Position numbers and translations under genes: made by a program. Shown one piece after another: positions 23,622 through 38,510 of a stretch of DNA of 64,000 nt. The DNA is taken from positions 7,836,001 through 7,900,000 of the forward strand of contig NZ_LT629758.1 of assembly GCF_900104725.1 (NCBI RefSeq). Direction: 5' to 3'. A model generated the notes under the pieces. It had not been told where the DNA came from. It saw nothing but the letters and a program-made list of their open reading frames with translations, and did no database searches. This stretch comes from Actinoplanes derwentensis (lineage in GTDB: Bacteria; Actinomycetota; Actinomycetes; Mycobacteriales; Micromonosporaceae). Numbering within the stretch: the stretch's first letter is position 1; every line of letters starts with the position of its first letter.

Positions 23622-24554
23622 ATGCTGCATGTCAGGGTCATTGCCCCGCCGTCGGTGAGCGTACGCGTGCAACAGCAGTTGACCGGTGATGAGGCGGTCA
23701 CCCACCTGATCGTGCTGCCCGGTGCGGCGAAGGCCCCGGCTGGTGACGTGGTGGAGTTCGATGTCGTCCGTGAGGGCGCCAGCAAGGTGCTCGACGGTCT
23801 CCGGGCTCTGGGAGTCGACCGTGACGGTGCCATCGTCGTGGAGAAGGTGGACGCCACGCTGTCCGCCGCCGCCGATCGAGCCGCGCGCCGTACGCCGGGG
23901 CTGGGTGTCGACGCGGTGGTGTGGCACGAGATCGAGCATCAGACGGGCGAGGAGACCGCTCTGTCGGCATCGTTCTTGACCTTCATGAGTGTCGCCACGG
24001 TCATCGCCGCCGTCGGGGTGCTGCTGGACCAGCCCATTCTCATCGTCGGGTCGATGGTTGTCGGTCCGGAGTTCGGGCCTCTCGCGGCTATGTGTGTCGG
24101 CCTCGTGCAGCGTAAGTTCACGCTGTTCCGCCGGTCCGTGCTCGCGTTGGCGGTCGGGTTCCCGGTCGGCATGCTCGTCACCGTGGGCGCGGTGTGGCTG
24201 CTGACCGCGGCCGGGCTGGTGGACAAGTCGATGCTGCTGGAGCCGCGCCCTCTGACCGATTTCATCTGGCGCCCCGACGCCCTGTCCTGGGTGATCGGGT
24301 TCCTCGGTGGTATCGCCGGCATCCTGTCACTGACGTCGGCCAAGGCCGGAACCCTCGTCGGGGTGCTGATCTCGGTGACCACGGTGCCTGCCGCCGCCAA
24401 CGCCGCCGTGGCTCTCGCCTATGGCGTACGCGAGGAGGCGTACGGATCAGCTCTGCAGTTGGCGATCAACCTCGCTGCGATCGTCGTCGCCGGTGTTCTC
24501 ACTCTCTTGGTGCAGCAGATCGCCTGGAAATGGCCGAGACGCACCGCGAGGTGA
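23622..24554 (+). CDS. DUF389 membrane protein
   Basis: 310 residues. A ~110-residue soluble N-terminal domain ([19 protein letters not shown]) precedes six predicted membrane helices with the DUF389 signature ([21 protein letters not shown], then [21 protein letters not shown] and [17 protein letters not shown]). Function of the family is not established; some members are described as stress-related inner-membrane proteins. The ATG is directly preceded by AAGGGGCCGTCC. Divergent from the APC permease with a 121-bp shared promoter region. Confidence 0.88.
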
Positions 24555-24680
24555 TTCGATCAGCCGCCTGCGTTGTCATGGTGCGGACATGCGGCCCTCG
24601 CCCGAGCGCCTGATCGCCTGGCCAGGCGACACCGCGACAACCGATCGCTCAGTGCAACAGCGTCAGTCGAGGCTGGATCG

Positions 24681-24812
24681 TCAGGCGCCGGCGGGAAGCC
24701 AGCTGGGCGTACCGTTCTCATCGACCACGACCAAGCCACCCGACCCGTCGTAGCGTGCGGCATACGCGTGCCTGACGGTCCGCAGCACCCGATTCTCGCC
24801 GACCTGCGTCAC
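24681..24812 (-). CDS. Possible small protein or gene remnant, 43 aa
   Basis: A GTG-initiated frame with good high-GC third positions: VTQVGENRVLRTVRHAYAAR, then YDGSGGLVVVDENGTPSWLPAG. No clear ribosome site. It could be a genuine small protein or the C-terminal piece of a lost gene. I do not recognise a family. Confidence 0.3.
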   Translation of the reverse strand: MTQVGENRVLRTVRHAYAARYDGSGGLVVVDENGTPSWLPAGA

Positions 24813-24977
24813 CCCGGCGCCGAGGTCCTGTCCCGCCGGCTGGAATCCGTGGGACCGGCCAGGTGACCGCGGTGGCGGTCCGGTCCTGGGTGCAAGTGGC
24901 AGGAATCCGGGATTCGCGAGGCCCGATGGGGCCATACGCTTGGTTCACCTGCCAAGGAGAACCAAGGAGCGACACCC

Positions 24978-25460
24978 ATGTTCGGTACGACCGCCGGCTG
25001 CCTTGTCCGTCGTGGACTTGTCTTTTCCGCACTGTGCGGGACTCGCACGCCGGGTGCGTGCAGCAGCCAGGGCGCGGTCGCCGGATCAGACGGGTCATCG
25101 ACGGCGTTCCCCACCGTGGCCTGAGCGGCCGGCGCCGGTGTCGGTGGCCCGCCGACCGGCGCAACCCCCACGACCGGGCAGCGGTACGGCCTCGGTGAAG
25201 CCACCGGAACGCCGTCCAGCCGCACGCTACCGGGTGACCGGCACGATCACGGTCCGGGTGATCACCCCCGAGTCCGGTGTGCAGAGCCAGTCTTCTTTAT
25301 TCGCCGCGCTGCCCACCTTCCTTGGCCAACAAGGACAACAGCAACCTGTTCGTCCAACACCGTCCAGAACGGCAAGATCACCGCGCTGAAGAGCCCGTGC
25401 CTGGCCCTGGCCGGGACCTCACGGACGGTGCTTTTCGCTGTCTGCGACGAACCCGCGTAA
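24978..25460 (+). other. Degenerate secreted-protein region
   Basis: A 48-codon frame (ATG 24978, with AAGGAG upstream; stop 25124) begins like an expressed gene but has no usable signal peptide. A second fragment in another frame (about 25330-25460) ends as ITALKSPCLALAGTSRTVL. Both resemble pieces of a small secreted protein broken by frameshifts. No intact gene is supported between 24978 and 25528. Confidence 0.35.
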
Positions 25461-25528
25461 CGCTTGCAAAGAACCCCCGTTCAAGATCAACACTATCGAT
25501 CTTGAACCACCCCTAAGGATATGAGGAC

Positions 25529-26257
25529 ATGAAAACAGCTTCGATGCGACTTGTCGTAGGTGCCGGCCTGCTTACCGTTCTCCTCACCGGATGCGCGTCC
25601 GTCACCGGAACCGCGGCCTCGAACGGCTCGGCTCCGGCGGCTGGGTCGGGATCGGCCGGGTCGGGGTCGGCGGGGTCGGGGTCGGCCGGGTCGGGATCAG
25701 CTGCGATCGCAACCAGTGCGATTCCGGCCGAAGCCTTACTCCAGCCAGCCGACTTGCGCGGCGCCACCGCCGAGCCGCTGGCGAACGGCGAACACGCACA
25801 CGTACGGCCGCTGCGCCCCTGTGGCACCAAGCCGTACCCGAGTGACAGCACCCGGACCGACGCGGTGGCGGTGCAATACACCGTTCCGGGCATTCCGCAG
25901 GGTGCCACCCCGTTCACGGTGGTGGAGTTCGTCGGCAGGCACAAGACCGGTGGGGCCGCCGCCCAGTTCACTGAGATCCGTGCGGCCCTGGCGAAGTGCC
26001 CAGGAGGGCTGGGCAAAGACCAATTTAAATGGACCGTCGTCGAATCCGACAGCGACTCGGTGCTCGTGAAGATCGAGCAGAAGTTCAGCTACGGCGACCA
26101 GGAACCCGCCGTGGTCGCCCAGTACGCGGCGCTGTCGATGGTGAACAACTCGGTGGTCATGGTCGCTGACCTGGGCTGGGAGAACACGGGCGGCTCGGAG
26201 GAACTGGTCCGCGAGTTTATCGTCAAGGCAGAGAAGCGAGCGGCCGCCATCAAATGA
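25529..26257 (+). CDS. Secreted lipoprotein with GSGSA repeats, 242 aa
   Basis: Signal peptide MKTASMRLVVGAGLLTVL and lipobox LTGC (Cys near residue 22). A flexible linker of GSGSA repeats, encoded by four 15-bp units, is followed by a ~170-residue extracellular domain (PAEALLQPADLRGATAEPL; ALAKCPGGLGKDQF; FSYGDQEPAVVAQYAALSM). It looks like the actinobacterial sensor-domain lipoproteins related to PknH-type extracellular domains, but that is a weak resemblance. Single-gene unit with its own strong terminator at 26258-26298. Confidence 0.82.
   Translation: MKTASMRLVVGAGLLTVLLTGCASVTGTAASNGSAPAAGSGSAGSGSAGSGSAGSGSAAIATSAIPAEALLQPADLRGATAEPLANGEHAHVRPLRPCGTKPYPSDSTRTDAVAVQYTVPGIPQGATPFTVVEFVGRHKTGGAAAQFTEIRAALAKCPGGLGKDQFKWTVVESDSDSVLVKIEQKFSYGDQEPAVVAQYAALSMVNNSVVMVADLGWENTGGSEELVREFIVKAEKRAAAIK
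25643..25702 (+). repeat. Four tandem 15-bp repeats encoding GSGSA linker units
   Basis: Copies at 25643, 25658, 25673 and 25688, consensus GGGTCGGGGTCGGCC. All are in frame, so copy-number change would alter linker length without breaking the lipoprotein. Confidence 0.85.
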
Positions 26258-26298
26258 CATTGCTGGGGTACGGGTCCGGAGCCCGTACCCCAGCAATG
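26258..26298 (+). terminator. Strong intrinsic terminator after the lipoprotein
   Basis: Perfect 17-bp arms (CATTGCTGGGGTACGGG and its complement) around a 7-base loop, immediately after the stop codon and followed by TCTTGTTGT. Confidence 0.88.
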
Positions 26299-26419
26299 TC
26301 TTGTTGTCTGGTTGAGCCCTTTTCGGCCTGATCTTGCAGGTCTCCGGGTAGGCCAGCAGATCGACCAGCAGATCGACCAAGACCCGATGCCCCGACCGGG
26401 AGCCTCGCCTGAGGGTCAG

Positions 26420-26455
26420 AAGGGCCTGAACCGCGGAAGCGCGGATCAGGCCCTT
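26420..26455. terminator. Second hairpin, probable terminator
   Basis: 16-base arms (AAGGGCCTGAACCGCG) with one mismatch and a 4-base loop, followed by CTTGC. It may back up the first terminator or belong to minus-strand transcription. Confidence 0.6.
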
Positions 26456-27018
26456 CTTGCTGTCGGGCCTTATCGGGCGATGGGTGTTCCGGGACGGACC
26501 GGGTGGCGGCGGGCGCAACCGGATCCTGGTCTGCCAATAGCTCCCGGATCCATCGCCGGCGGCTTCGAATGCCTTAGGTCTCACGCCTGGAAGCGACGGT
26601 AGCGCGGCCCACCACGAAGATCAACCGCGTTCAATGCGAATGATGTGCCTAAGTGATATTGACTCCGTCGTCGCCGACTTTCGCGGCAAGATGTCTGAAT
26701 GGGGCGTTCCGCATCCTTCCGACCCTGAATGCGCCTGTATCTGGCGCCCGGATAAATAGCGATTTGCGGCCCTCAAAGATGTTCCGCAGTGAGTCGAGCG
26801 GTTCCGGCTGGTTGTTCCAAAAACGCAGGCCACAGTGGATCCTTGCCAGTGTGTAGGCGCGCTGTTACTGTACGAAACATCTTCACCGGAAGAGCTCGTC
26901 TAATGTTTCTGTCTACGCGTGTTCATCGTCTAGTCGACTTCACATGCGCAGTGACAAAAGTCCGAAGACGCCGATAAGCCGCCCCGGGAATTCTTATGCA
27001 ATCAAGGCTTGTACGCTG
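26456..27018. other. Long lower-GC leader region upstream of the RiPP operon
   Basis: About 560 bases with GC clearly below the neighbours, so likely promoter/leader of the operon starting at 27019. One 41-codon frame (26634-26759), ending CACIWRPDK, has no ribosome site and mixed codon use. A second ATG (26944) is in frame with the MFS gene and would add 25 residues, but no Shine-Dalgarno precedes it. Confidence 0.45.
26634..26759 (+). CDS. Possible 41-aa peptide upstream of the RiPP operon (doubtful)
   Basis: ATG 26634 to TAG 26759. Acidic, Cys-containing C-terminus (HPSDPECACIWRPDK). No ribosome site and low GC at third codon positions compared with neighbours. It could be a remnant or a small regulatory/substrate peptide; listed because of its place next to a peptide-modifying cluster. 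Confidence 0.2.
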   Translation: MRMMCLSDIDSVVADFRGKMSEWGVPHPSDPECACIWRPDK

Positions 27019-28281
27019 ATGGCCACCACATCCGAAAACACATTATCGCCGCATCGCGCACGCGATTTCCGGCTTTATTGGATCGCCGGCGGAATCGACG
27101 CGCTGGGCTCCCATTCGTCCAGCATCGTCCTGCCTTTGGTGGCCATCGCCGTCACCGGTTCGCCCACCGCGGTCGGCGTGGTCGGCGCTCTGGCGGTGGC
27201 CGGCCGGCTCGTGGCGGCGCCGGTCACCGCGGTGCTGGCCGACCGGCTGCCCCGTCGGACCATGATGATCGCCGCGCTGTTGACGGCCGCCGCCGCCACG
27301 GGTGTCATCTCCGGCGCGCTGCTGACGGACACCCTGGTCATCGGCGTGCTGGCGGCGGCTGCCTTCGTCGAGGGCGCCGCGCAGTCCGGATACGAGTCCG
27401 CCGGCGCGGGCGCGATCCGCCGCCTGCTTCCGGCCGACGACCACCGCGCCCTGGCACGGATGGAAGCCCGCAACCATGCCGCCCAGATCCTCGGTCCGTT
27501 GCTCGGCGGAGCGCTTTTCCAGGTGGCGCGCTGGCTGCCGTTCCTCGCCGACTTCGTCTCGTACGTCATCGCGGCGGTCTGTGTGGCGGCCATCCGCACC
27601 GATCTCACCCCGCACCGGGAGGAACGCACCTCCTTCGTGGGCGACCTGCGCGCCGGCCTCCGGTTCGTGGCCGGCCAACCCTTCCTCCGGTTCGTCACCG
27701 TGTGGGCCGCCGGCATCAACTTCGCGTTCGCTGCCCTGATCTACGCCGTCATCCTCATCTCCGACCGCCGGGGCGCCTCGCCGGTGTCGATCGGTCTGGT
27801 GTTGACGGTCGCCAGCGTCGGCGGGTTGCTCGGGGCGCTCGCCACCCCGCGGGTGGTGCAGCGGCTCCGGCCCGCCGCCACCATCGTGGTCGCCTCCTGG
27901 GCGATGGTGGCGTTCGTCGCCGCTCTGGTGGTAGCCCAGCAGACCTGGAGCTACGGCCTGCTGATCGGCCTGGTGTTCCTGCTGAGCCCGCTGGCCGGCG
28001 TGATCCTGCAGGCCCGCGCCATCATGGTGACCCCCGACGACCTGCAGGGCCGGGTGGCCACGGTCATCGGCACCGTCGGCGAGGTGCCACAGATGTTCGC
28101 GCCCTTGCTGGCGGCGGTGCTCGTGGCCCATGTCTCACCGGCGGTGGTGGCGCTGAGCTGCGCGGCACTGCTCGCGGTGCTCGCCGGATACGCCACCGTC
28201 AATGTCGGGCTGCTGCGTACCGACGCCGCACCGGGTGATCCGGCCGACGCCGAACCGACGTCTGAGGAGGACCCGCGATGA
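27019..28281 (+). CDS. MFS exporter of the RiPP cluster
   Basis: 420 residues with 12 predicted membrane helices, beginning ATTSENTLSPHRARDFRLYW (family-typical R-D-F-R-L-x-W). The loop ADRLPRRTMM between helices 2 and 3 fits the MFS motif A region of the MFS_3/EntS-like efflux group. ATG 27019 is in the position expected for the family. Its stop overlaps the start of the S9 peptidase (ATGA at 28278-28281), so the two are translationally coupled. By context it should export the finished peptide or give self-protection; that is inference. Confidence 0.85.
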   Translation: MATTSENTLSPHRARDFRLYWIAGGIDALGSHSSSIVLPLVAIAVTGSPTAVGVVGALAVAGRLVAAPVTAVLADRLPRRTMMIAALLTAAAATGVISGALLTDTLVIGVLAAAAFVEGAAQSGYESAGAGAIRRLLPADDHRALARMEARNHAAQILGPLLGGALFQVARWLPFLADFVSYVIAAVCVAAIRTDLTPHREERTSFVGDLRAGLRFVAGQPFLRFVTVWAAGINFAFAALIYAVILISDRRGASPVSIGLVLTVASVGGLLGALATPRVVQRLRPAATIVVASWAMVAFVAALVVAQQTWSYGLLIGLVFLLSPLAGVILQARAIMVTPDDLQGRVATVIGTVGEVPQMFAPLLAAVLVAHVSPAVVALSCAALLAVLAGYATVNVGLLRTDAAPGDPADAEPTSEEDPR

Positions 28282-30071
28282 GCCGCACGTTCCGGCTCTA
28301 CTACCCGGTGCTGCCCACGATCGCCGAGCAGACCCCACACCGGGCGGTGTACGTGGGTGAAGCGGAGGACCGCTGTCAGATCTTCGCCTGGAACCGGCGT
28401 ACCGGGACGACTCGCCAGCTCACCGCCCGGCGCGCGGGCACCACCCGGGCGGCGCTCGACCCCGCCGGGGAGACCGTGTGGTGGTTCGACGACGACCTCG
28501 CTGGTACCGGCCGGTGGCAGCTGGTCGACTTCGCCGGATTCACCGGCCCCCGGCTGGCCCTGCCGGAGACGGCGTCCGGTCGGCCCGCCGGTCTCGCCAT
28601 GGCGGCTGACGGCACCGCGGTGATCGGGCTGACCGGCGAGCGGGGGCTGACCCTGCACGTGCGCCACCCGGACGGGAGCCATCGCGTCGCTCGGAGCCTG
28701 GACGACTACGCGTACGTCGTCGACGTGGACGCCGCCGGCCAGCTCATCGTCGTGGGCGCCGATCCGGCCGGCGCCGACGCGGTCACCGTCTACACCGCCG
28801 ACGGAGAACAGTCCGCGGTACTGGCGGGCGGCCAAGACCGCCGCGTGTGGGCGCTCGGGTTCGCCCCAGGCACGTCGCGGCTGCTGCTCGTGGTGGAGGC
28901 CGACGGCGACTATCGGCTGGCCACCTGGACGCCGGGGGACGGCTTGCGGCACCACGACGCGCACCGCTTCCCGACCGAGATCACGGCTTGCTGGTACCCC
29001 GACGGCGAACACGTCCTGGTACGCCAGGACCGGCACGCCGAGAGCCGGCTCTACCGGGTCAGCCTCGCCACTGCCGACCAGGCCCCGATCGCCGTGCCGA
29101 CCGGCAGCGTGCTGGACGCGGCCGTGTGGCCCGACGGCGACGTGGCGTACGTCTGGACCGACGCGGCCACCCCGCCACAGTTGTGCTCCACCGGCGGCAT
29201 GGCGCTGCCCGCCGAGGACGGCGCGGGCCCCCGCACCGGAGCCGCGCCGGCGGCCCGCCGCCGTGACATCTGGGTGCCGGGTCCCGGCGGCGACATCCAC
29301 GCGCTGGTGACGACGCCCGCCGACCGTACCGGCCCGGCGCCCGCGGTTTTTCTCGTGCACGGCGGACCCTCCGAGCATGCGCGTAACGCCTACGACCCGG
29401 TGGTGGACCTGCTGGTGCACACCGGCTGCGCCGTCGTCCGGGTCAACTACCGCGGGTCGAGTGGCTACGGCGCCGCCTGGCGCAGCGACTTCCCCGCCGG
29501 GGTGGGACATACCCAGCTGGAGGACCTGGCTGCCGTACGCCAACGATTGGTCGACGACGGGGTGGTGCTGGCCGATCGGACAGCGCTGTGGGGTCACTCC
29601 TGGGGCGGCTATCTCACGCTGTTGGCCGTCGGTGTTCAGCCGGACCTGTGGCGGCTCGGGATCGCGGTCACCCCGATCGCCGACTACATCGCGGCGTTCC
29701 ACGGGTCCAGCCCGGCCGTCCGTGCCCTCGACCGGAAGCTGTTCGGCGGCACCCCGGACGACGTACCCGAACGCTATCTCCGCGCGTCCCCGGTCACCTA
29801 TGTCGACCAGGTGCGGGCCCCGGTGTTCCTCGCCGTCGCGACCGACGACGTGCGTTGCCCGCCGGAGCCCGTCGAACAGTACGCGGCGCTGCTGACGCGG
29901 CGCAGTGTCCCGAACCGCCTGTTGCGCTTGCACGCCGGTCACGAGGACGTCGACGCCCGCAACCACGTCGCCCTCATGCAGGCGGTGCTGCCGTTCATGC
30001 AGCGGCACTTCGATGGTGTCCGGGATGAAGGTACGCCGATCGCGCTGGCCTTGGCGCGACCGGCGGGCTGA
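28278..30071 (+). CDS. S9-family prolyl-oligopeptidase-like peptidase of the RiPP cluster
   Basis: 597 residues with no signal peptide. An N-terminal beta-propeller (residues ~1-340, with repeated W/D/G blades) is followed by an alpha/beta-hydrolase domain starting DIWVPGPGGDIHALV. The triad is visible: Ser in WGHSWGGYL, Asp in VATDDVRCPPEP, His in LHAGHEDVD. The oxyanion loop is FLVHGGPSEH. Family members cut short peptides after entry through the propeller. Encoded between exporter and precursor, it is the natural candidate for leader removal or peptide trimming. The start overlaps the MFS stop by four bases. Confidence 0.88.
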   Translation: MSRTFRLYYPVLPTIAEQTPHRAVYVGEAEDRCQIFAWNRRTGTTRQLTARRAGTTRAALDPAGETVWWFDDDLAGTGRWQLVDFAGFTGPRLALPETASGRPAGLAMAADGTAVIGLTGERGLTLHVRHPDGSHRVARSLDDYAYVVDVDAAGQLIVVGADPAGADAVTVYTADGEQSAVLAGGQDRRVWALGFAPGTSRLLLVVEADGDYRLATWTPGDGLRHHDAHRFPTEITACWYPDGEHVLVRQDRHAESRLYRVSLATADQAPIAVPTGSVLDAAVWPDGDVAYVWTDAATPPQLCSTGGMALPAEDGAGPRTGAAPAARRRDIWVPGPGGDIHALVTTPADRTGPAPAVFLVHGGPSEHARNAYDPVVDLLVHTGCAVVRVNYRGSSGYGAAWRSDFPAGVGHTQLEDLAAVRQRLVDDGVVLADRTALWGHSWGGYLTLLAVGVQPDLWRLGIAVTPIADYIAAFHGSSPAVRALDRKLFGGTPDDVPERYLRASPVTYVDQVRAPVFLAVATDDVRCPPEPVEQYAALLTRRSVPNRLLRLHAGHEDVDARNHVALMQAVLPFMQRHFDGVRDEGTPIALALARPAG

Positions 30072-30115
30072 CCCCGGCCGGCCTGGCACTGCGAGACCCG
30101 GAGAGGAGGAACAGC

Positions 30116-30214
30116 ATGCGCAAGAGCGTCGTCGAGAACGACCCGATCAGCGGCAACCGGGAACAGCTCCGGTCGAAGCCGTCGGTCACGATCAGCGTTT
30201 CCATCAAGTTCTAG
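30116..30214 (+). CDS. Candidate RiPP precursor peptide, 32 aa
   Basis: ATG 30116 sits behind a very strong ribosome site (GAGAGGAGGAACAGC). The 32-residue product has a charged N-terminal leader-like part (MRKSVVENDPISG at residues 1-13) and a C-terminal 12 residues KPSVTISVSIKF, in which hydrophobic beta-branched residues (V, I, I) alternate with Ser/Thr. No Cys, so not a lanthipeptide or sactipeptide. It lies 45 bases after the peptidase gene and about 100 bases before a radical SAM maturase, with a hairpin between. Position, size and ribosome site support a modified-peptide substrate; no known precursor family is recognised. Confidence 0.75.
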   Translation: MRKSVVENDPISGNREQLRSKPSVTISVSIKF

Positions 30215-30221
30215 TCAGGAC

Positions 30222-30260
30222 ACGGCGTGCGGGGACCGGATCTCCCGCCCCGCACGCCGT
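30222..30260 (+). terminator. Attenuator-like hairpin between precursor and maturase genes
   Basis: Perfect 13-bp arms (ACGGCGTGCGGGG at 30222-30234, complement at 30248-30260) around a 13-base loop, 8 bases after the precursor stop. A partial terminator here would give much more precursor message than maturase message, a common RiPP arrangement. Confidence 0.75.
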
Positions 30261-30318
30261 CGCCCACCTTGGTCGCACCGACCCGGCCGCCCCGCGGCCG
30301 GCACAGCAGGAGGATGAC

Positions 30319-32241
30319 GTGCGGATCGTGCTGGTCAACATGCCGTGGGCGTCGATCGACGTCCCGTCCTTGGCGCTCGGAATCCTCACCACGAGCGCCC
30401 GCCGGCACTTCCCGGACGCCGAGGTGGAGGTGATCCACGCCAACCTCGACTACGTCGACTGGGTGGTGGACCGCACCGAGTTCTCGGTCAACGACTACCA
30501 CTACTACTCGCTGTTCACCTACTTCGCCGGCTGCGGCGACTGGGTGTTCTCCGCCGCGCTGCACGACGATCCGGAGTGGCGGGTCGCCGAGTTCATCGAG
30601 CGGGTCAGCGACCAGATGTCCGACCACGAACGGGATCTGACCGTCGGACTGCACCGGCTGGCCCCGGCCTTCATCAGCGAGCTGGCCGAGCGCATCGTCG
30701 CCGCCCGCCCGGACGTGGTGGGCTTCACCTCCACGTTTCAGCAGAACACCGCCGCACTGGCCGCCGCCCGGTACGTCAAGCGGCTGGACCCGTCGATCGC
30801 CACCATCTTCGGCGGCGCCAACTGCGACGGCGCCCAGGGCGCCGCGATGCACCGCAACTTCCCGGCGGTCGACTTCGTGGTGCGCGGCGAGGGCGAAGCC
30901 GCCTTCCCGCAGGTGTTGTCCGCGCTCGCTCGGCAGCCGGGAGACGACACCGATCCGTTCGCCGCCGTCGAGGGCCTGTGCTGGCGAGACGCCACCGGTC
31001 GGTCGGTGGCCAACCCGATGAGTAGCCGTCCGCTGCCGCCGGCCGGCATCGTCGCGCCGGACTACGCGGGCTACTTCGAGCGGCTGGCGTCCTCGCGGGC
31101 GCAGAGCTGGGTGGAGCCCAAACTGGTGGTCGAGGGCGCCCGCGGCTGCTGGTGGGGCGAGAAGCACCACTGCACCTTCTGCGGACTCAACGGCTCGTTC
31201 ATGCAGTTCCGCAGCAAGGAAGCCACCCAGTTCCACGACGAGATCGTCGCGCTCGCCGAGCGGCACCAGGTGCTCGACATGTTCGTCGTCGACAACATCA
31301 TGGACATGGGGTACGTCCAGACCCTGCTGCCGCGCCTGGCGGAGTCCGACTACGACCTGCGGTTGCAGTACGAGATCAAGTCCAACATGCGAGGTGCCCA
31401 GGTGCAGGCCCTTGCCGACGCGGGACTGGTCAGCGTGCAACCGGGCATCGAAAGCCTCAACGGCCGGGTCCTGAAGATCATGGACAAGGGCGTCACCGGC
31501 TGTCTCAACGTACGAATGCTGCGTGATGCTGAGACCAGCGGCATCACCGTGGCCTGGAACTATCTCTATGGCTTCCCCGGTGAGAGCGACGACGACTATC
31601 TCAGCGTGATCGCCCAGATGCCAGCGCTGCACCACCTCGCTCCGGCTGACGGCGCCTCACGGATCGCCATCGAACGGTTCAGTCCGTATTTCAACCGCCC
31701 CGAGCTGGGCTTCGCCGATCCGCGCCCGGCCGCGCAGTACCGGATGAACTACGACCTGCCCGAGTCGGAGCTGATGGACCTCGCGTACATCTTCGACGTG
31801 GCTCCGCAGGGCATCGGCGGACGCACCGAGACGCTACTGGCCGAAGCGGTGGCCGAGTGGCAGTACGAGTACGCCCGCAGCCGGCTCACCCACCACGACC
31901 TGGGCGACGAGATCGTGCTGATCAGCCGGCGACGACACTTCGACTGGCGGGTCCACCGGCTGACCACGCCGCTGGAGCTGGCACTGTTCCGGCTGCTCGA
32001 CCAACCGCACAGTCCGGCCGCGGCCGCCCGGCGACTCGACACCGCCCCGGAGACCGTCGACGCCCTGATGGATCAGTGGCGCCTGCTCGGCATCGTCTTC
32101 ACCGACGGCAGCCAGTTCGTGCACGTGGCGCCAGTCGCGATGAACCAGCATCTGCTGCGCATCGACCACCTGCACCCGGAGCGCAACGACGGCGAGCCGA
32201 CCGAACCCACCGGCCGATCCGATGCGCTGACCGCAGTCTGA
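30319..32241 (+). CDS. B12-type radical SAM RiPP maturase (C-methyltransferase-like)
   Basis: 640 residues from GTG 30319, with AGGAGG 5 bases upstream. The N-terminal cobalamin-binding-type domain (VLVNMPWASIDVPSLALGIL; IFGGANCDG; FVVRGEGEAAFPQVL) precedes the radical SAM core. The cluster motif is C-x7-C-x2-C (RGCWWGEKHHCTFCGLNGS, Cys codons 31147, 31171 and 31180), the spacing typical of ribosomal-peptide maturation radical SAM protein 1 (TIGR03975-type), annotated as RiPP C-methyltransferases. A ~180-residue C-terminal domain follows (LELALFRLLDQPHSPAAAA), possibly for peptide recognition. It most likely methylates unactivated carbons of the peptide encoded at 30116; the modification is inferred from family. 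Confidence 0.9.
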   Translation: MRIVLVNMPWASIDVPSLALGILTTSARRHFPDAEVEVIHANLDYVDWVVDRTEFSVNDYHYYSLFTYFAGCGDWVFSAALHDDPEWRVAEFIERVSDQMSDHERDLTVGLHRLAPAFISELAERIVAARPDVVGFTSTFQQNTAALAAARYVKRLDPSIATIFGGANCDGAQGAAMHRNFPAVDFVVRGEGEAAFPQVLSALARQPGDDTDPFAAVEGLCWRDATGRSVANPMSSRPLPPAGIVAPDYAGYFERLASSRAQSWVEPKLVVEGARGCWWGEKHHCTFCGLNGSFMQFRSKEATQFHDEIVALAERHQVLDMFVVDNIMDMGYVQTLLPRLAESDYDLRLQYEIKSNMRGAQVQALADAGLVSVQPGIESLNGRVLKIMDKGVTGCLNVRMLRDAETSGITVAWNYLYGFPGESDDDYLSVIAQMPALHHLAPADGASRIAIERFSPYFNRPELGFADPRPAAQYRMNYDLPESELMDLAYIFDVAPQGIGGRTETLLAEAVAEWQYEYARSRLTHHDLGDEIVLISRRRHFDWRVHRLTTPLELALFRLLDQPHSPAAAARRLDTAPETVDALMDQWRLLGIVFTDGSQFVHVAPVAMNQHLLRIDHLHPERNDGEPTEPTGRSDALTAV

Positions 32242-32254
32242 AGGAGCACCGAAA

Positions 32255-32902
32255 ATGACCGTCCACCACGCCGCCCCGATCTCCGTGCACCTGGCTCGCG
32301 ACGCCGACCCCGACGGCGGGCCGCGGATGGCGTTGGGCACCGTCGATCTCGTCGAATCGCCCGGTGAGGCGGCCGCGGCGTGGTTCCGTGCGGGAGTACG
32401 CCACGTGACGCTGTCGTCCGCCGTGGACCTGACCGACCCCGACCCGGCGACACTGGCCGGACTGCTGCTGGTACGGGAGGCCACCAGCCACGGCATCTCC
32501 GTCGACTGGCGGCTCGTGCTGCCCGGCGACGGCGCGGACTGGCGGGTCTACTCGCACCTGTATCCGCCGGCCGACCTGCGTACGGCGGCACCCGGCGAGG
32601 ACTTTGAACACCTGGCCGAGTGGCGGCGCACCTTCTACATCGACAAGTGCACGTACCGGCACGGACCTGGATTCGTCCAGGTCCGGGATCGGCGGACCGG
32701 CAAGCTGAACCTGCTCACCATCGACGATCCGGCCTACCTGGCGGTTCTCGACGCCACCCGCGACGGGGCACCGATGGCCGCGGTGGATCTCGACATCGCC
32801 CGGGACTTCGCCGCCGAGGGTTTGGTCGCCAAGATCGCCGACATCCTCGTGTGGTTGCCATACCGGCTACGCCGCTGGCCGCTGCCCTCCATGATCGTGT
32901 GA
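32255..32902 (+). CDS. Radical SAM companion protein (DUF5825-like), 215 aa
   Basis: ATG 32255 with AAGGAG 8 bases upstream and 13 bases after the maturase stop, so clearly in the same operon. The middle shows GVRHVTLSSAVDLTDPDP, then EWRRTFYIDKCTYRHGPGF and VRDRRTGKLNLLTIDDPAYL. I associate this pattern with DUF5825 proteins found beside RiPP radical SAM maturases. The FVQVRD and ITIDDP-like segments recall small winged modules that bind precursor leaders, but that is a guess. No catalytic motif, signal peptide or membrane segment is seen. Confidence 0.7.
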   Translation: MTVHHAAPISVHLARDADPDGGPRMALGTVDLVESPGEAAAAWFRAGVRHVTLSSAVDLTDPDPATLAGLLLVREATSHGISVDWRLVLPGDGADWRVYSHLYPPADLRTAAPGEDFEHLAEWRRTFYIDKCTYRHGPGFVQVRDRRTGKLNLLTIDDPAYLAVLDATRDGAPMAAVDLDIARDFAAEGLVAKIADILVWLPYRLRRWPLPSMIV

Positions 32903-32919
32903 CGACCGACCTCGGTCGT
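32900..32919 (+). terminator. Terminator at the end of the RiPP operon
   Basis: Arms GACGACCGA and TCGGTCGTC around a 2-base loop, overlapping the stop codon of the last operon gene. No T-run. Confidence 0.55.
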
Positions 32920-33014
32920 CGGTGAACCTTCGATCAGGAATGGAGAAGTAGGGCCACGGCATTCCCGTTGGCTTCATCGGGACACCGTCGGCGACGATGA
33001 AGGAGCGGACTCCA

Positions 33015-33470
33015 GTGAGCCCAACCTCGAAAGCCAGCAAGAATGGCCTCTCCGAGGTCGAGCGCGCCGCAGTCAAGGATCGCGCGGCAGAGGTGCGGTC
33101 GCAGGCGCGCCGGGCGAAGAGCGCTGACAGGTCGGCGGCCGACGAGAGTGACGTGCTGGCGAAGATCGCCGAGATGGCGCAACCGGACCGCGGAGTGGCC
33201 GAGCGCCTGCACGCGATCATCAAGGAAACCGTTCCGGAGCTGGCGCCGAAGCTGTGGTACAGCCAGCTGGCCTACGCCCTGGACGGGAAGGTGATCTGCT
33301 TCTTTCGCAGCGGCCAGACGGACAAGGAACGCTACTCGACGTTCGGCTTCTCGTCGGCGGCGAAACTCGACGAGGCCCGCGGCTTGTGGGCGACGTCGTT
33401 CGCGCTGTCGGAGCTGAGCGACGAGGGCGAGGCGATGATTCGGTCGTTGCTGACGAAGGCCGTGGGATGA
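33015..33470 (+). CDS. DUF1801 family protein (YdhG/Fra-like fold)
   Basis: 151 residues from GTG 33015. An in-frame ATG at 32997 is possible, but the AAGGAG motif lies inside that longer version and suits the GTG. The N-terminal ~50 residues are Lys/Arg/Ala-rich (RSQARRAKSADRSAADE). The DUF1801 core follows: HAIIKETVPELAPKLWYSQL, ICFFRSGQTDKERYSTFGF and ALSELSDEGEAMIRSLL. Related small proteins (YdhG, frataxin-like Fra) have been linked to intracellular iron handling. Stand-alone gene after the RiPP operon; no link to it is evident. Confidence 0.85.
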   Translation: MSPTSKASKNGLSEVERAAVKDRAAEVRSQARRAKSADRSAADESDVLAKIAEMAQPDRGVAERLHAIIKETVPELAPKLWYSQLAYALDGKVICFFRSGQTDKERYSTFGFSSAAKLDEARGLWATSFALSELSDEGEAMIRSLLTKAVG

Positions 33471-33491
33471 GGATGCTGCTGCCCGGCGTGA

Positions 33492-33932
33492 TCACGTTCG
33501 GCGCGGCTGATGTCCGACGGTGGTCCGGCGGGCGGCGACTCCGGTGACGACGAAACCGCCGAGCGCGTCGCCCACGGCCAGCGTCACGCCGAACACTCCA
33601 GCTGCGGAGATGCCAGCGATGAGCGTGACGGCCACCAGCGCGATGAAGACCGCGCCCAATCTCAGCCATGTCAGGCGGAGCGTGGCACGAGCGAGACCGC
33701 GTCCACCTCGCAACAGGGCGATCATCGCGAGAAGCGCGAGTACAGCCCCGACGGCGGCTGATGCCCCCATCACCATGAACGGGCCGGTCTGCTCGACTGT
33801 CAGGGCGCCGCTGCGGTACGACTGCCATGACGTCGCGCCGATCGCAGCGAGCACGCCGTCGGCCAGTGCGGCCACGATGCCCACAACGGCGAGCAGCGTG
33901 GTTCCGCTGTGTGCGGTGCGGGCCGCCATCAT
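33492..33932 (-). CDS. Four-TM membrane protein in ESX-like operon, 146 aa
   Basis: Four predicted membrane helices: TLLAVVGIVAALADGVLAAIG, FMVMGASAAVGAVLALLAMIA, LGAVFIALVAVTLIAGISAAG and the adjacent VFGVTLAVGDALGGFVVTGV. Family not recognised. The ATG overlaps the stop of the preceding WXG100-like gene (ATGA at 33929-33932), so it is the last gene of a four-gene minus-strand operon that starts at 35683. It may anchor or help export the upstream proteins; this is inference. Confidence 0.75.
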   Translation of the reverse strand: MMAARTAHSGTTLLAVVGIVAALADGVLAAIGATSWQSYRSGALTVEQTGPFMVMGASAAVGAVLALLAMIALLRGGRGLARATLRLTWLRLGAVFIALVAVTLIAGISAAGVFGVTLAVGDALGGFVVTGVAARRTTVGHQPRRT

Positions 33933-34642
33933 GCGGTACCCGCCGGCGGCCAGTGCTTCTGGAAGAAGGAGCTGTCGTCGAACTTCTGCCGCAACGTAGT
34001 GTTCGCCGACGTACAGCAGCCTTTCAAGGTTTCGCAGCCGACGATCAGCGACAGCGAGGCGGTCACCGCCGCGCCAGCTGCGATGAATGGTGCCGCGGGC
34101 ATACCGAGGATCGTGGCACTCGACGCGATCGCGCCGAGAATGCCGATCACGAGCGCGACAAGCGCCCCGGCCAGGCTGCTCCAGAACACCAGGATCCCGA
34201 GATGCACCTGGCCCAGCGCCGTCGCCAGGCCGTCCGTGATCGTCATCTTGATCTTCTCCAGCGCGGCCTTCTGCAACGGCAACATCTGCCGGTACGCGTC
34301 TGCCGCGTCACCGTCCCAGTTGTCATCGACGGTCAGCAGCCCGGCATCAGCGGCCTGGACCTGACCGCTGACCGGCACACCGACCCGGTCGCTCCAGGCT
34401 TGCGCCGCGTTCGACAAGGCTGACGGTGAACCCATGTTGGACAGAATGATCTGAAGGTTCTCCCAGATCCGCTCCATGAACGCGCAGAAGTCGTCCCAGC
34501 CCTGCCGGATCGAGGACTGCACCGGCTCGGGGATGAATCCCAGTTTGTTGTTGATCGAGTTCTGTAGTTCGACGGTCTTGCCGTCGATGCGGCTGATGGT
34601 CGAGTTGATGCGTTCCAGCAGTACGGCTTCGGTACTACTCAC
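33929..34642 (-). CDS. Long WXG100-like ESX substrate with hydrophobic C-terminus, 237 aa
   Basis: GTG 34642 overlaps the stop of the upstream gene by eight bases. An N-terminal helical region (SSTEAVLLERINSTISRIDG) is followed by NWDGDAADAYRQMLPLQK near residue 110, a W-x-G turn (W-D-G) of the ESX hairpin type. Two hydrophobic helices (LGILVFWSSLAGALVALVIG, then ATILGMPAAPFIAAGAAVTA) lie C-terminal. Large WXG100-type proteins with membrane-active tails are typical of T7SS substrates. A CCTSANTT cysteine pair near the end is unusual. Secretion is inferred. Confidence 0.75.
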   Translation of the reverse strand: MSSTEAVLLERINSTISRIDGKTVELQNSINNKLGFIPEPVQSSIRQGWDDFCAFMERIWENLQIILSNMGSPSALSNAAQAWSDRVGVPVSGQVQAADAGLLTVDDNWDGDAADAYRQMLPLQKAALEKIKMTITDGLATALGQVHLGILVFWSSLAGALVALVIGILGAIASSATILGMPAAPFIAAGAAVTASLSLIVGCETLKGCCTSANTTLRQKFDDSSFFQKHWPPAGTA

Positions 34643-34952
34643 GGGGATCCCACACTCCTTCGAGCTCTCGGGCCGCCAGATCATCGTTCGTCTCGTACAG
34701 ATAGGCGACCTTGTCCAGCTTCAGGCTCAGCCCGCTATAGACCTCGCTCGCCTCCTCCAACAGGGTCGCGGCCTTACGTTGAAGCTCGGCGTACGTATCC
34801 AGCAGCCCACTCGGCAACGCCGCCCACGACAGCTCGTTCGCGCTCAAGGTCAGCTGGCTCGCCTCCATCGCGGCTTGCCGAGTCACTGCGGAGACCTGCT
34901 CCCACGAGGCGGCATCACGACGAAGCGCCTCCAGCGCAGCTTGCAGAGTCAT
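34635..34952 (-). CDS. Small ESX secretion-associated protein (EspC-like), 105 aa
   Basis: ATG 34952 overlaps the stop of the YbaB-like gene (TGATGA). The 105 residues form two long helices: ALEALRRDAASWEQVSAVTR and LLDTYAELQRKAATLLEEA, linked by LTLSANELSWAAL, similar in size and layout to ESX-1 secretion-associated EspC/DUF2580 proteins. It has no signal peptide. The C-terminal segment (KLDKVAYLYETNDDLAARE) contains Y-x-x-x-D/E (YLYETND), the T7SS general export motif. It likely partners with the longer WXG100-like protein immediately downstream. Confidence 0.75.
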   Translation of the reverse strand: MTLQAALEALRRDAASWEQVSAVTRQAAMEASQLTLSANELSWAALPSGLLDTYAELQRKAATLLEEASEVYSGLSLKLDKVAYLYETNDDLAARELEGVWDPRE

Positions 34953-35683
34953 CAGCTCGCCAACCCGAATCGCCGGACGATCCCGAACGGATCCTGCATC
35001 GTCCACTGCGCCTCGCCGAGCGGGCTGTCCGCGATCAGCTTCTCCACCCCATGAAGAGCGACTTTCTCGTACGCCGCACGAAAGGCCGCCGCGATCTGCC
35101 GGTTCAGATTGGCATCGTGAGCGTCCCGAAGCCACCTCCGATCGAACCGCACGGCCACGACCTCACCGCCACCGGTCACCTCCACAGCCACCTCGTGATG
35201 CCGGCTGCGTCCGGTGTGGATCGCCTCCACCGTCTGTCGCAGCTTGCCGGATACCTCGTCGAGGCCCCGCTCGATCGACTCGACCACCTCCAGCAACGCC
35301 ATCAACGCGGCCTCCCGATCCCCATCGAGGAGCGATCCTGACGTGATCGATTCGATCTGTTGGTGCACGTCACGAGTGGTGGGGCCCTGTGTCACGGCGG
35401 GCTCGACGTACGCCGCTCCCCACGCGGTCAACCGACGAACCGCGGCTTCCCGGACCGCGTCGACCACAGCTGATCCCAGGCGCTCCTCGGAGACTCGTGA
35501 ACGCCAATCGCTCGCCACGATCACCGACGTGACCCGGCCGTCCTCATCCAGCGCCGTTGTCACCGACCCGGTCGAGTCCGTCCCGGGTCCGCCGGATGCG
35601 CTGGCCGCTAACCGGGCCCGGCGGAGCAACTCCTCACCGTCATCCCGCAGGCCGACCAACGCCGCCAATCGGTCGTCGAACAT
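34952..35683 (-). CDS. YbaB/EbfC-like protein, first gene of the ESX-like operon, 243 aa
   Basis: ATG 35683 (MFDDRLAALVGLRDDGEEL); the longer frame lacks support. It appears to contain two copies of a YbaB/EbfC-like fold: residues ~1-90 (TALDEDGRVTSVIVASDWRS) and ~110-225 (HHEVAVEVTGGGEVVAVRF, DRRWLRDAHDANLNRQIA). YbaB-like proteins are common as first genes of actinobacterial ESX-type operons, where their role is not established. It is tightly coupled to the following small helical gene. Confidence 0.75.
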   Translation of the reverse strand: MFDDRLAALVGLRDDGEELLRRARLAASASGGPGTDSTGSVTTALDEDGRVTSVIVASDWRSRVSEERLGSAVVDAVREAAVRRLTAWGAAYVEPAVTQGPTTRDVHQQIESITSGSLLDGDREAALMALLEVVESIERGLDEVSGKLRQTVEAIHTGRSRHHEVAVEVTGGGEVVAVRFDRRWLRDAHDANLNRQIAAAFRAAYEKVALHGVEKLIADSPLGEAQWTMQDPFGIVRRFGLAS

Positions 35684-35758
35684 CGGCCACCCCCGCTTCG
35701 GCGATCTACACCCGTCGAACTGTCGCAATTTTGGATACCCCGCACAACGGCACCGGGT

Positions 35759-36014
35759 TCAATCCTCGCGGTTGATCAGCTTCGCCTTGTTCTTCGGAGC
35801 GCTCTCGAGCGACAGGGCCGGCGCGGTGTTGCCCGCGGCATCCCGGAGGCGGAGTTCCACCTGGGCGGTCGGAGTGGCGATGACGCGCGGATCCCAGGAG
35901 AAGAGCGGTGTGGGTGAGGCCAAAATCCCATTGACCCATCATTCGGTACGGGTGATCGGCGACCCGGTAGTCCAGGGTGGCCGTGGAGCCGACCCAGCCC
36001 GCGCCATTGTCCAC
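35759..36014 (-). pseudogene. Remnant of a secreted Ig-like protein, frameshifted
   Basis: Two frames carry one protein: STATLDYRVADHPYRMMGQW, then after about 35905 VELRLRDAAGNTAPALSLES and APKNKAKL. The D-A-A-G-N-x-A and S-A-P-K-N-K-A pieces also occur in the intact Ig-like gene at 38556-39749, so this is a decayed relative. It lacks a signal peptide and both ends. Confidence 0.55.
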
Positions 36015-36169: not shown

Positions 36170-36757
36170 TTAACGGGCGGACAGTGGAGCGGGCAGTTTG
36201 GCTTTGAGTCCCTGGTCGATGAAACCGAGAATCCAGGTGAAGCTCTCGTCGATGTCGGCGGCGATCTGGAAGCTGCCGTCGGCTTCCAGGGTCGAGAATC
36301 CGTGCAGGATGCTGCGCAGCATCCGCAGGGCGTGGATCTCCTGGTCGGGTTCCAGGTGGTACCCGTGCAGCATGGCCGTCCAGGAGGCGAGCACCCGCTG
36401 GACGGCGGGGATGAGCGGGTCGTCGGGTCCGGTGACGCTGGCGAAGTTTCCGGCCGCGTAGCGTCCGGGGTGTTCCAGCACGTACGTGCGCATCGCGTGC
36501 GCACCGGCGGCGAGGGCTTCGCCGCCGGATCGGCCCTGCGTGGCGTCACGGATGGCGTCGGCTAGCTCGTTCATGGCCAGGACCGCGATCCGGTGGGACA
36601 GATCGGCCTGGTTGGTGACGTGTTTGTAGAGCGAGGGCGTCCGGACGCCGAGACGTTCGGCGAGCAGAGCCATGCTGAGCGCGGGGAAGCCGATCTCGTC
36701 GGCCAGCGCGGCGCCGGCTGCGGTGACCGAGGCCTGATCGAGTCCGACTCTAGGCAT
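36170..36757 (-). CDS. TetR-family transcriptional regulator (WHG-domain type)
   Basis: 195 residues. HTH in the first 50 residues ([40 protein letters not shown]) is canonical TetR. The C-terminal domain ([54 protein letters not shown]) fits the TetR_C_33/WHG group. Its ATG overlaps the end of the alpha/beta hydrolase gene by eight bases, so both are in one operon. A CATTAA-G-TTAATG dyad upstream of the operon (37616-37628) is the probable operator. Confidence 0.9.
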
Positions 36758-37586
36758 TGGTCAGCGTCCTGGCGAGGAAGGGCAGGGACAGCGCGAGGAC
36801 CTTGTCCGGGGTCTCGGCATGCGGGTAGTGGCCGGCACCGTCGATCATCGCCAGCTCTCCGAGCCCGCGGGGCAGATCGGCGATGATCTTCTCGGCTTCG
36901 GCGCGGGGGTCGGCCCAGTCGGGGTCGAGGGTGCCTTCAATGATCAGGACCGGGCACTTGACGTTGGGCAGCTGCGCGCCGGCGTCGCCCGGACTGGTCT
37001 TGCACATGGCCTGAAGTGTCTTCATCCGACCAGGCTCGCTCATCTTGGTCTCGATCCGCGCCAGTTCGTCGTCCCAGTCGAAGGGCTTGTTCGGGTACGC
37101 CAGGTCGAGGTACTTCTTCCAGCTCGACATGCTTCCCAGAGCCATGGTCATCCCGAGCTGCGTGCTGCCGGCGCGGTAACGCTTCACCCGGAACAGCGCG
37201 CCCAGGGACACCGACTGCTCGCGGGTGAACGGCGCCAGCTCGATGACTCCGGCGATGAGATCAGAAGCGGTGGCGGCCGCGATCGTGGCGGCGCCGCCGC
37301 TGATCGATTGCCCCATGATGACGGCCGGGCCGCCGAGATGACGCACCAGGGCGACCAGGTCGCCGGCGATGTCGGTACGGCTGTAGCCGTCCCACCCGAG
37401 GCTGGAGTCCCCACAGCCGCGAATGTCGAGGTTCGCCACCCGGTAGCCGGCCGCCACCAGGCCGGGAACGATGAAGCGGTAGGAGTGGCGGCTGTCACCC
37501 ATGCCGTGCGCGAGCACCACCAGCGGCCCCTCGCCAGTCACGTCATACGCAATCTTGTTGCCGGCGATGTCCAGGTACTCGGTCAT
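36750..37586 (-). CDS. Alpha/beta hydrolase (serine type), 278 aa
   Basis: ATG 37586 with GGAGG 5 bases upstream. Motifs: oxyanion loop [13 protein letters not shown], nucleophile elbow [10 protein letters not shown] (Ser), acid in [11 protein letters not shown] and His in [13 protein letters not shown]. These make it an esterase/lipase-like or C-C hydrolase-like enzyme; substrate unknown. No signal peptide. It is the first gene of an operon with the TetR regulator that follows, a usual layout for an inducible detoxifying or degradative enzyme under local repression. Confidence 0.9.
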
Positions 37587-37615
37587 GATGCCCTCCAGCG
37601 GCTAACGTTGTTACT

Positions 37616-37628
37616 CATTAAGTTAATG
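37616..37628. promoter_or_regulatory. Probable TetR operator upstream of the hydrolase-tetR operon
   Basis: Perfect dyad CATTAA-G-TTAATG, 30 bases upstream of the hydrolase start, in a distinctly A+T-rich patch (about 37600-37640) that should also hold the promoter. Binding by the TetR protein is inferred from position and symmetry. Confidence 0.55.
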
Positions 37629-37772
37629 CCATTAGCCAGAAGTGTCAACATCGTCTCTGCCCGGCCGGTGCCGGGCGTGCCGCGCGGCCGACGGTGTGAC
37701 ACGAAAACGGGAGACGAACCCGCCTCATGTCCTCATAGGATTTGCATATCAGCAGCTAGGGACGGGGATTCA

Positions 37773-38510
37773 ATGTTCAGCATCAGTCGTAAGAAGCTGG
37801 CCGCGATCGGTATCGCGGCGGCCGCCACGTCCGCCTTCTTCGCCTCGCCGGCGCAGGCCGCGTCGGCTGCCAAGGCCGAGGTGGCGGGCACCGTTGTCCG
37901 GTTCACCGCCGCTGCCGGTCAGGCCAACTCGCTGACCATCACGGTCTCCGGCCGGACGGTCACCCTGAACGACACGGTCGCCGTCAAGGCCGGCAAGGGC
38001 TGCAAGGCCGTCGCGGGGGACAAGACCAAGGTCAAGTGCACCACCGCCAAGAAGCCGACCCGAATCACCGTCGCGCTCGGTGACAAGAACGACTTCGTGC
38101 AGAGTCACGCCTCGGTTCCCCTGACCGCCAACGGCGGCTCCGGCGACGACACCGTCTTCGGCGGTTACGGCAAGGACACCCTGACCGGCGGGAACGGCGT
38201 CGACGACGTGCAGGGCGGTCCCGGCAACGACACCCTCCGTGGCGGACATGGCAACGACCATGTGGAAGGCGGCCCGGGCAAGGACAAGCTGTACGGCGAG
38301 GCCGGCAACGACGACCTGATCGGCGGCGACCTCGACGGCGAAGGGGCCGACAGCGGCGACACCATCTACGGTGGCGCGGGTAACGACTTCCTGCTCGGCG
38401 GTTACGGTAACGACACCCTCTACGGCAACGCCGGTAACGACAACCTGGTCGGTGGCTCGGGCAAGGACAAGCTGGTCGGCGGCCCCGGCAACGACACCAG
38501 CACCCAGTAA
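37773..38510 (+). CDS. Secreted calcium-binding protein with RTX repeats, 245 aa
   Basis: Sec signal peptide ([20 protein letters not shown], cleavage near SPAQAASA). A ~90-residue beta-rich N-terminal domain with a Cys pair (GKGCKAV, KVKCTT) follows. From about residue 115 there are roughly ten nonapeptide RTX repeats of the G-G-x-G-x-D-x-L/I type ([37 protein letters not shown]). These form calcium-loaded parallel beta-rolls outside the cell. No toxin or enzyme domain is present, so a structural or adhesive wall protein is likely. No type I secretion C-terminus. Confidence 0.88.

Follow-up and report, generated by a model that had tools for sequence, protein, structure and literature searches.

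A probable clavusporin-type operon for a C-methylated peptide in Actinoplanes derwentensis

In a 64,000-nucleotide stretch of DNA from Actinoplanes derwentensis (contig NZ_LT629758.1, positions 7,836,001 to 7,900,000; hereafter the window, whose own numbering is used), we examined five genes that lie on the + strand in one tight operon at 27019-32902. They encode, in order, an exporter of the major facilitator superfamily (MFS), an S9-family serine peptidase, a 32-residue peptide, a B12-binding radical S-adenosylmethionine (rSAM) enzyme, here called the maturase, and a DUF5825 protein (Table 1). The successive intergenic gaps are -4, 44, 104, and 13 nucleotides (nt), and coordinates, strand, and spacing agree with the original prediction, which had read these genes as one operon for a ribosomally synthesized and post-translationally modified peptide (RiPP). 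By analogy with a known system, the operon very probably makes a small, C-methylated, hydrophobic peptide of the already described clavusporin kind. Of 551 genome loci encoding a maturase relative, the best 80 (L001-L080) served for comparison. All five genes were found in order in 67 of the 80 loci, and in 66 of the 73 that extend more than 3.5 kb upstream and more than 0.7 kb downstream, the exceptions among the latter being L005, L023, L027, L053, L061, L071, and L073. For the exporter, the best tblastn segments showed 38% identity in Streptomyces clavuligerus and 62-68% in the 13 loci of Micromonospora type; an in-frame upstream ATG at 26944 is a possible alternative start of this gene.

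Table 1. Features of the operon, in coordinates of the window.
Feature	Position	Strand	Basis
MFS exporter, 420 amino acids (aa)	27019..28281	+	PF07690, 104.4 bits; PF05977, 69.8 bits
S9-family serine peptidase, 597 aa	28278..30071	+	PF00326, 118.5 bits
Predicted precursor peptide, 32 aa, MRKSVVENDPISGNREQLRSKPSVTISVSIKF	30116..30214	+	Leader motif and subtype alignment
GC-rich hairpin, 13-bp stem, directly 3' of the precursor stop codon	30222..30260	+	Fold energy and stem survey
Predicted B12-binding rSAM RiPP C-methyltransferase, 640 aa, GTG start at 30319	30319..32241	+	TIGR03975, PF02310, PF04055
DUF5825 partner protein, 215 aa	32255..32902	+	PF19142, 219.7 bits (cut-off 25)
Hairpin after the last gene, without T-run, weak candidate terminator	32900..32921	+	RNA folding

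The maturase matched TIGR03975 over the whole protein (residues 3-604 on profile positions 1-605) with 599.5 bits, against a curated NCBI cut-off of 281.85, and exceeded the cut-offs of both PF02310 (B12-binding) and PF04055 (Radical_SAM). TIGR03975 was over its cut-off once in the whole genome, a second match of 74 bits being located elsewhere. The C-x7-C-x2-C cluster that had been described for the maturase is present as CWWGEKHHCTFC, and its Cys triad was kept in 80/80 related loci. The partner is a full Pfam match to PF19142 (DUF5825) at 219.7 bits; this score, like that of TIGR03975, bears out the family assignments made earlier. DUF5825 occurs as a single copy in this genome and adjoined the maturase gene in 79 of the 80 related loci, with L025, which ends at a contig end, as the exception. 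A class-wide survey at E 0.001 found DUF5825 in 16 of 394 genomes, that of A. derwentensis included, and the family is therefore uncommon in the class. Within the window's family, 34 of 300 genomes (own genome included) carried it at E ≤1e-10, at 50 places in all. When 30 of the 49 other places were fetched, an rSAM gene lay beside DUF5825 in 29; in the remaining region, L136 (G114), no maturase was found and DUF5825 was a remnant with an internal stop, apparently part of a decayed operon. The sole match of the maturase to the sequence of a solved structure at E 0.001 was TokK (7kdx), a weak one (E 7.4e-11, residues 117-422), and DUF5825 gave no credible match among solved structures (best E 0.27).

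The peptide gene is preceded by an AGGAGG-type ribosome site, consistent with the very strong site claimed for it, and the translation likewise agrees with the description of a peptide that lacks Cys and ends in KPSVTISVSIKF; the C-terminal Phe is its sole aromatic residue. The peptide matched nothing in NCBIfam (E 1) or Pfam (E 0.01), and in one protein search, with 7 hits to a Streptomyces relative, the names of precursor relatives were absent or started with "hypothetical protein". A leader motif, K-x-[VILF]-[VILF]-x2-[DN]-P-[LI], was drawn up after viewing these peptides and was sought within 460 nt upstream of the maturase gene. It was found in 75 of 78 testable loci (misses: L023, L027, and L073; L050 and L069 were untestable, their start being too near the gene) and nowhere else on either strand in 2,593,088 bases of the same loci. 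In addition, an alignment of 12 distinct peptides of the window's subtype, described below, contained 15 invariant columns. The original prediction had staked its case on the short gene being conserved among homologous clusters, and it withstood this comparison of neighbourhoods, both in the precursor motif and in the five-gene order. On this conservation, we judge the 32-residue peptide to be a real precursor, with a leader of about residues 1-20 and a core extending to the C terminus. At L020, two different precursors lie in tandem, 405 and 216 nt upstream of one maturase gene.

The core in the window, S-V-T-I-S-V-S-I-K-F, alternates between hydrophobic and polar residues over 10 positions, an extent that was equaled in 1 in 300 shuffles of residues 19-32. 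Alternating runs of at least 7 positions were present in 58 of 83 distinct precursors, compared with 3.5 expected after shuffling. In a strand of this kind, Val, Ile, and Phe point to one side and Ser, Thr, and Lys to the other, and the methyl groups would most plausibly be carried by the Val/Ile face.

Three sets of precursors were recognized. Set 1 is mostly from Streptomyces (e.g., MQKDIIHNDPLAGDEENRKPGIGITVTVPFRNAEDGDED). Set 2, the window's subtype, follows MRK-x-[VI]2-x-NDPI-x-GNR-[DE]-Q-x-R with a run in which V/I alternates with polar residues and which Phe closes, and was found at 15 loci besides the window. Set 3, [MV]KRR...DPI...ER-x-RG, was found at 12 loci (L121, L122, L125-L127, L130, L132-L134, and L140-L142); its peptides show the pattern KRR-x-[VI]-x-x-DPI...ER-x-RG, mostly followed by AVIVKML, next to rSAM, DUF5825, and S9 genes, and no MFS relative was found at these 12 loci. 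When 98 precursors were sorted by pattern, a Pro at the leader-core junction together with an acidic C-terminal tail was found in 62 of the 71 of the residual, mostly Streptomyces set, and neither feature in 15/15 members of the window's subtype other than the window. The window peptide itself has the junction Pro (K21-P22) and lacks the acidic tail. It belongs to a Micromonospora-like subtype, in which the core extends as far as a C-terminal Phe and no acidic tail follows. A maturase tree of 73 rows (a quick method, with Shimodaira-Hasegawa-like approximate likelihood ratio support only and 17 open forks of 70) grouped the window with 13 Micromonospora-type rows at a support of 89, separate from a Streptomyces clade of 36 rows, with a support of 100, that contains S. 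clavuligerus pSCL4. The window's subtype was not one clade in this tree, the Actinokineospora and Saccharothrix rows (L019 and L042) standing apart from the 14 Micromonospora-type rows. Nine of the 30 fetched DUF5825 regions (L128, L129, L131, L135, L136, L137, L138, L139, and L143) contained no peptide of the three sets, or another form. One of them, L135, in a genome of the window's genus, encodes around position 4402 a peptide of 27 aa, MQKSVVLNDPQSERSVASVEVSVTVKF, whose gene has a strong ribosome site and lies before that of a 52% identical maturase; the 8.1 kb fetched contained no relative of S9 or MFS, and this may be a still smaller version. Short Lys-containing open reading frames (ORFs) at L131 (4582), L137 (4550), and L143 (4291), numbered in the maturase orientation, precede more distant maturase/DUF5825 pairs and are candidate unrelated precursors.

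The catalytic triad of the S9 peptidase, read from an alignment with 2qzp, is S441-D524-H555. The nucleophile motif GxSWG[GA] was found in 72 of the 73 loci among L001-L080 with an S9 match, and the exception, L047, is a truncated frame. The nearest solved structures by sequence were acylaminoacyl peptidases (2qzp, E 4e-30), followed at a greater distance by 7c72, named a prolyl oligopeptidase (E 2.2e-19), and the prolyl endopeptidase 2bkl (E 1.2e-7). A dedicated S9 maturation protease had been regarded as unusual; much of this surprise is gone, since the accessible text of PMC12951456 describes MpcP, an S9 protease of the prolyl-oligopeptidase (POP) family, as involved in removal of the clavusporin leader. 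Pro was considered as a general mark of the cleavage site and was rejected, as it fails in the window's own subtype, where the 15 other members lack it.

The gap between the precursor and maturase genes (30215-30318) folds at -58.1 kcal/mol with a z of -3.69. It contains the hairpin at 30222-30260, which was absent from the original prediction. A stem of at least 10 bp in the first 70 nt past the precursor stop was found in 78 of 99 loci, and in 50 of these 78 loci it began 5-7 nt past the stop. Among controls, such a stem occurred in 95 of 1980 dinucleotide shuffles and in 21 of 1288 coding tiles. In 24 loci, chosen among strong stems and hence not a sample, the stem was kept while the sequence varied widely. 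In the window's own subtype, a stem of this length was found in only 5 of 16 loci (the window, L003, L004, L019, and L042), which is weaker than overall. The hairpin is likely to act as a partial terminator or a protector of the 3' end, which would give more precursor than enzyme.

The operon had also been described as closed by a terminator. A hairpin is indeed present at 32900-32921, although its strength as a terminator was not upheld: it folds at -14.9 kcal/mol (z -1.85), 10 of 200 shuffles were as good, no T-run follows it, and the terminator scanner made no call there. The only terminator-like site called in 26000-34000, against 2.4 expected in shuffles, was at 26256-26300, a 20-bp stem with a 5-nt loop that overlaps the stop codon of an ORF whose end is at 26257. 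Downstream of the operon, a protein of 563 aa that carries RTX calcium-binding repeats (PF00353) is encoded at 36819-38510, next to a gene for a TetR-type regulator (36170-36757).

The accessible text of PMC12257519 reports that a homologous B12-rSAM/DUF5825 pair C-methylates clavusporins, and the cited title of the clavusporin paper speaks of peptide surfactants with C-methylations. We consider the locus to be a clavusporin-type RiPP operon with a probability of roughly 0.86, with leader-guided C-methylation by the rSAM enzyme and DUF5825, leader removal by the S9 peptidase, and export by the MFS protein. The 32-aa precursor would be made first, and its leader, K-x-V-V-x-N-D-P-I, would present the core to the maturase. 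Working with its DUF5825 partner, this enzyme may then add methyl groups to unactivated carbons of the core. The S9 peptidase would subsequently cut off the leader, possibly after Pro22 in the window peptide, and the MFS protein would export a very hydrophobic, amphipathic, surfactant-like peptide, for which a surface-active or developmental role is conceivable by analogy. The RiPP reading of the original prediction was sustained by conservation, and C-methylation is a reaction documented for a homologous pair. The novelty claim was not sustained: the supposed lack of any described product with such a combination is contradicted by the clavusporins, which use both a B12-rSAM/DUF5825 pair and the S9 protease MpcP, according to the available sections of PMC12257519 and PMC12951456.

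Several observations weigh against this assignment. The matches to solved structures appear to put the S9 enzyme nearest to acylaminoacyl peptidases and not to prolyl oligopeptidases. In the window, the nucleophile motif reads GHSWGG, with a His before the catalytic Ser, where 15/15 subtype relatives have Thr or Ser. The junction Pro is absent from the 15 other subtype members, and the subtype has no acidic C-terminal tail of the kind seen in most Streptomyces peptides, so that cleavage may differ. The clavusporin precursor is presumably the pSCL4 peptide, a link suggested by the name. Furthermore, other B12-rSAM enzymes of RiPP pathways cross-link rather than methylate, as with PbsB/BipD in biphenomycin-like pathways, which form C-C bonds without methylation according to the accessible text of PMC12257519 and PMC12707348. 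That the rSAM/DUF5825 pair of the window likewise cross-links or otherwise remodels its peptide is nevertheless improbable. No MNIO (multinuclear non-heme iron-dependent oxidative enzyme; PF05114) was matched in the whole genome, compared with 2 of 14 control genomes with a match, and the lone aromatic residue of the peptide is its C-terminal Phe, with no FxF/YxY or FHAFRF/YHxYxY-type motif. In the same part of PMC12257519, C-methylation is linked to the rSAM/DUF5825 pair and cross-linking to a different B12-rSAM. Biphenomycin-like cross-linking was thus rejected, given a genome without MNIO and an unsuitable peptide.

A more serious alternative, which we still regard as unlikely, is that the peptide is C-methylated while the S9 and MFS proteins serve otherwise, for example, in self-protection or product breakdown, and a general protease removes the leader. 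The Streptomyces loci L005, L053, and L071 have a precursor and enough flank yet no S9 or MFS gene by tblastn, and the S9 gene is kept in the 15 other subtype members without a junction Pro; against this, 67 of the 80 loci have both genes ahead of the precursor gene in the shared order, and the accessible part of PMC12951456 reports the POP MpcP as involved in removing the leader of clavusporins. Hardly credible, finally, is a 32-codon ORF that is a chance reading frame, with the true substrate elsewhere. Small ORFs are common in this GC-rich DNA (122 of at least 25 aa overlap 24000-36000), and in the subtype leaders variability at third codon positions barely exceeds that at first positions (6 versus 5 of 19), but the placement of the leader motif and the invariant columns rule it out. 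Purifying selection at the DNA level was also considered and rejected; since variable sites numbered 5, 3, and 6 by codon position in 13 distinct subtype leader DNAs of 19 codons, coding constraint was not used as evidence.

With the clavusporin-type assignment retained, the locus adds to this operon type a Micromonospora-like branch whose precursor is simpler. There is no tail to remove, and a minimal set of three genes, for the peptide, the methylase, and its partner, could therefore be put to the test. The common leader motif provides a precise handle for finding such precursors, and the hairpin after the precursor gene is a testable regulatory element. We tentatively propose, as one joint picture that is somewhat less than even odds, a distinct follower-less clavusporin branch with a C-methylated beta-strand, a Phe end, a role of its own, and an S9 enzyme acting without a Pro site in the other members, combined with a hairpin throughout the kind that sets an excess of precursor. 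The operon adds no new class of system to those already known.

Clavusporins are reportedly hydrophobic peptides with two effects, a lowered surface tension and support of development in Streptomyces, and their operon is said to be widespread in actinomycetes; the window's subtype may therefore already be listed in the clavusporin paper. S. clavuligerus is, as we assume from the name, a clavusporin producer. Its plasmid pSCL4 carries MFS, S9 (annotated as an alpha/beta fold hydrolase), peptide, rSAM, and DUF5825 genes in the same order as the window, and for this reason we assign the window's operon to the clavusporin kind. In the best tblastn segments, the two are 62% (rSAM), 44% (S9), 38% (MFS), and 38% (DUF5825) identical. 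The pSCL4 precursor, MQKDVIHNDPLAGDEENRKPSVGITITVPFRNAEDADED, which is absent from the gene table (incomplete by design), has the same leader motif. The window precursor differs from this presumed clavusporin precursor in R2, "ISGNREQ", the lack of an acidic C-terminal tail, and a core ending in Phe, and its rSAM falls outside the Streptomyces clade that includes pSCL4. At the level of the Mpc proteins, the available sections of PMC12257519 and PMC12951456 show the B12-rSAM/DUF5825 pair and an S9/POP-family protease to be common to clavusporins and the window.

Biphenomycin-like pathways resemble the window, in the parts of the cited papers that were available, in that a B12-rSAM enzyme acts on a ribosomal precursor, and clusters with YHxYxY precursors also hold an rSAM/DUF5825 pair (PMC12257519); they differ in their MNIO and FHAFRF/YHxYxY-type precursor, neither of which was found for the window. 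TokK (7kdx), to which the maturase has its weak match, is a B12-rSAM methyltransferase whose substrate is not known to be a RiPP precursor. The Micromonospora-type operons (L001-L004, L114-L120, L123, and L124) share with the window the five genes, the leader, and the follower-less core, with rSAM enzymes 71-77% identical to that of the window, whereas the K-P before the strand is found in the window core and not in these 13 operons. Taken together, the operon of the window looks like a Micromonospora-type relative of the clavusporin system.

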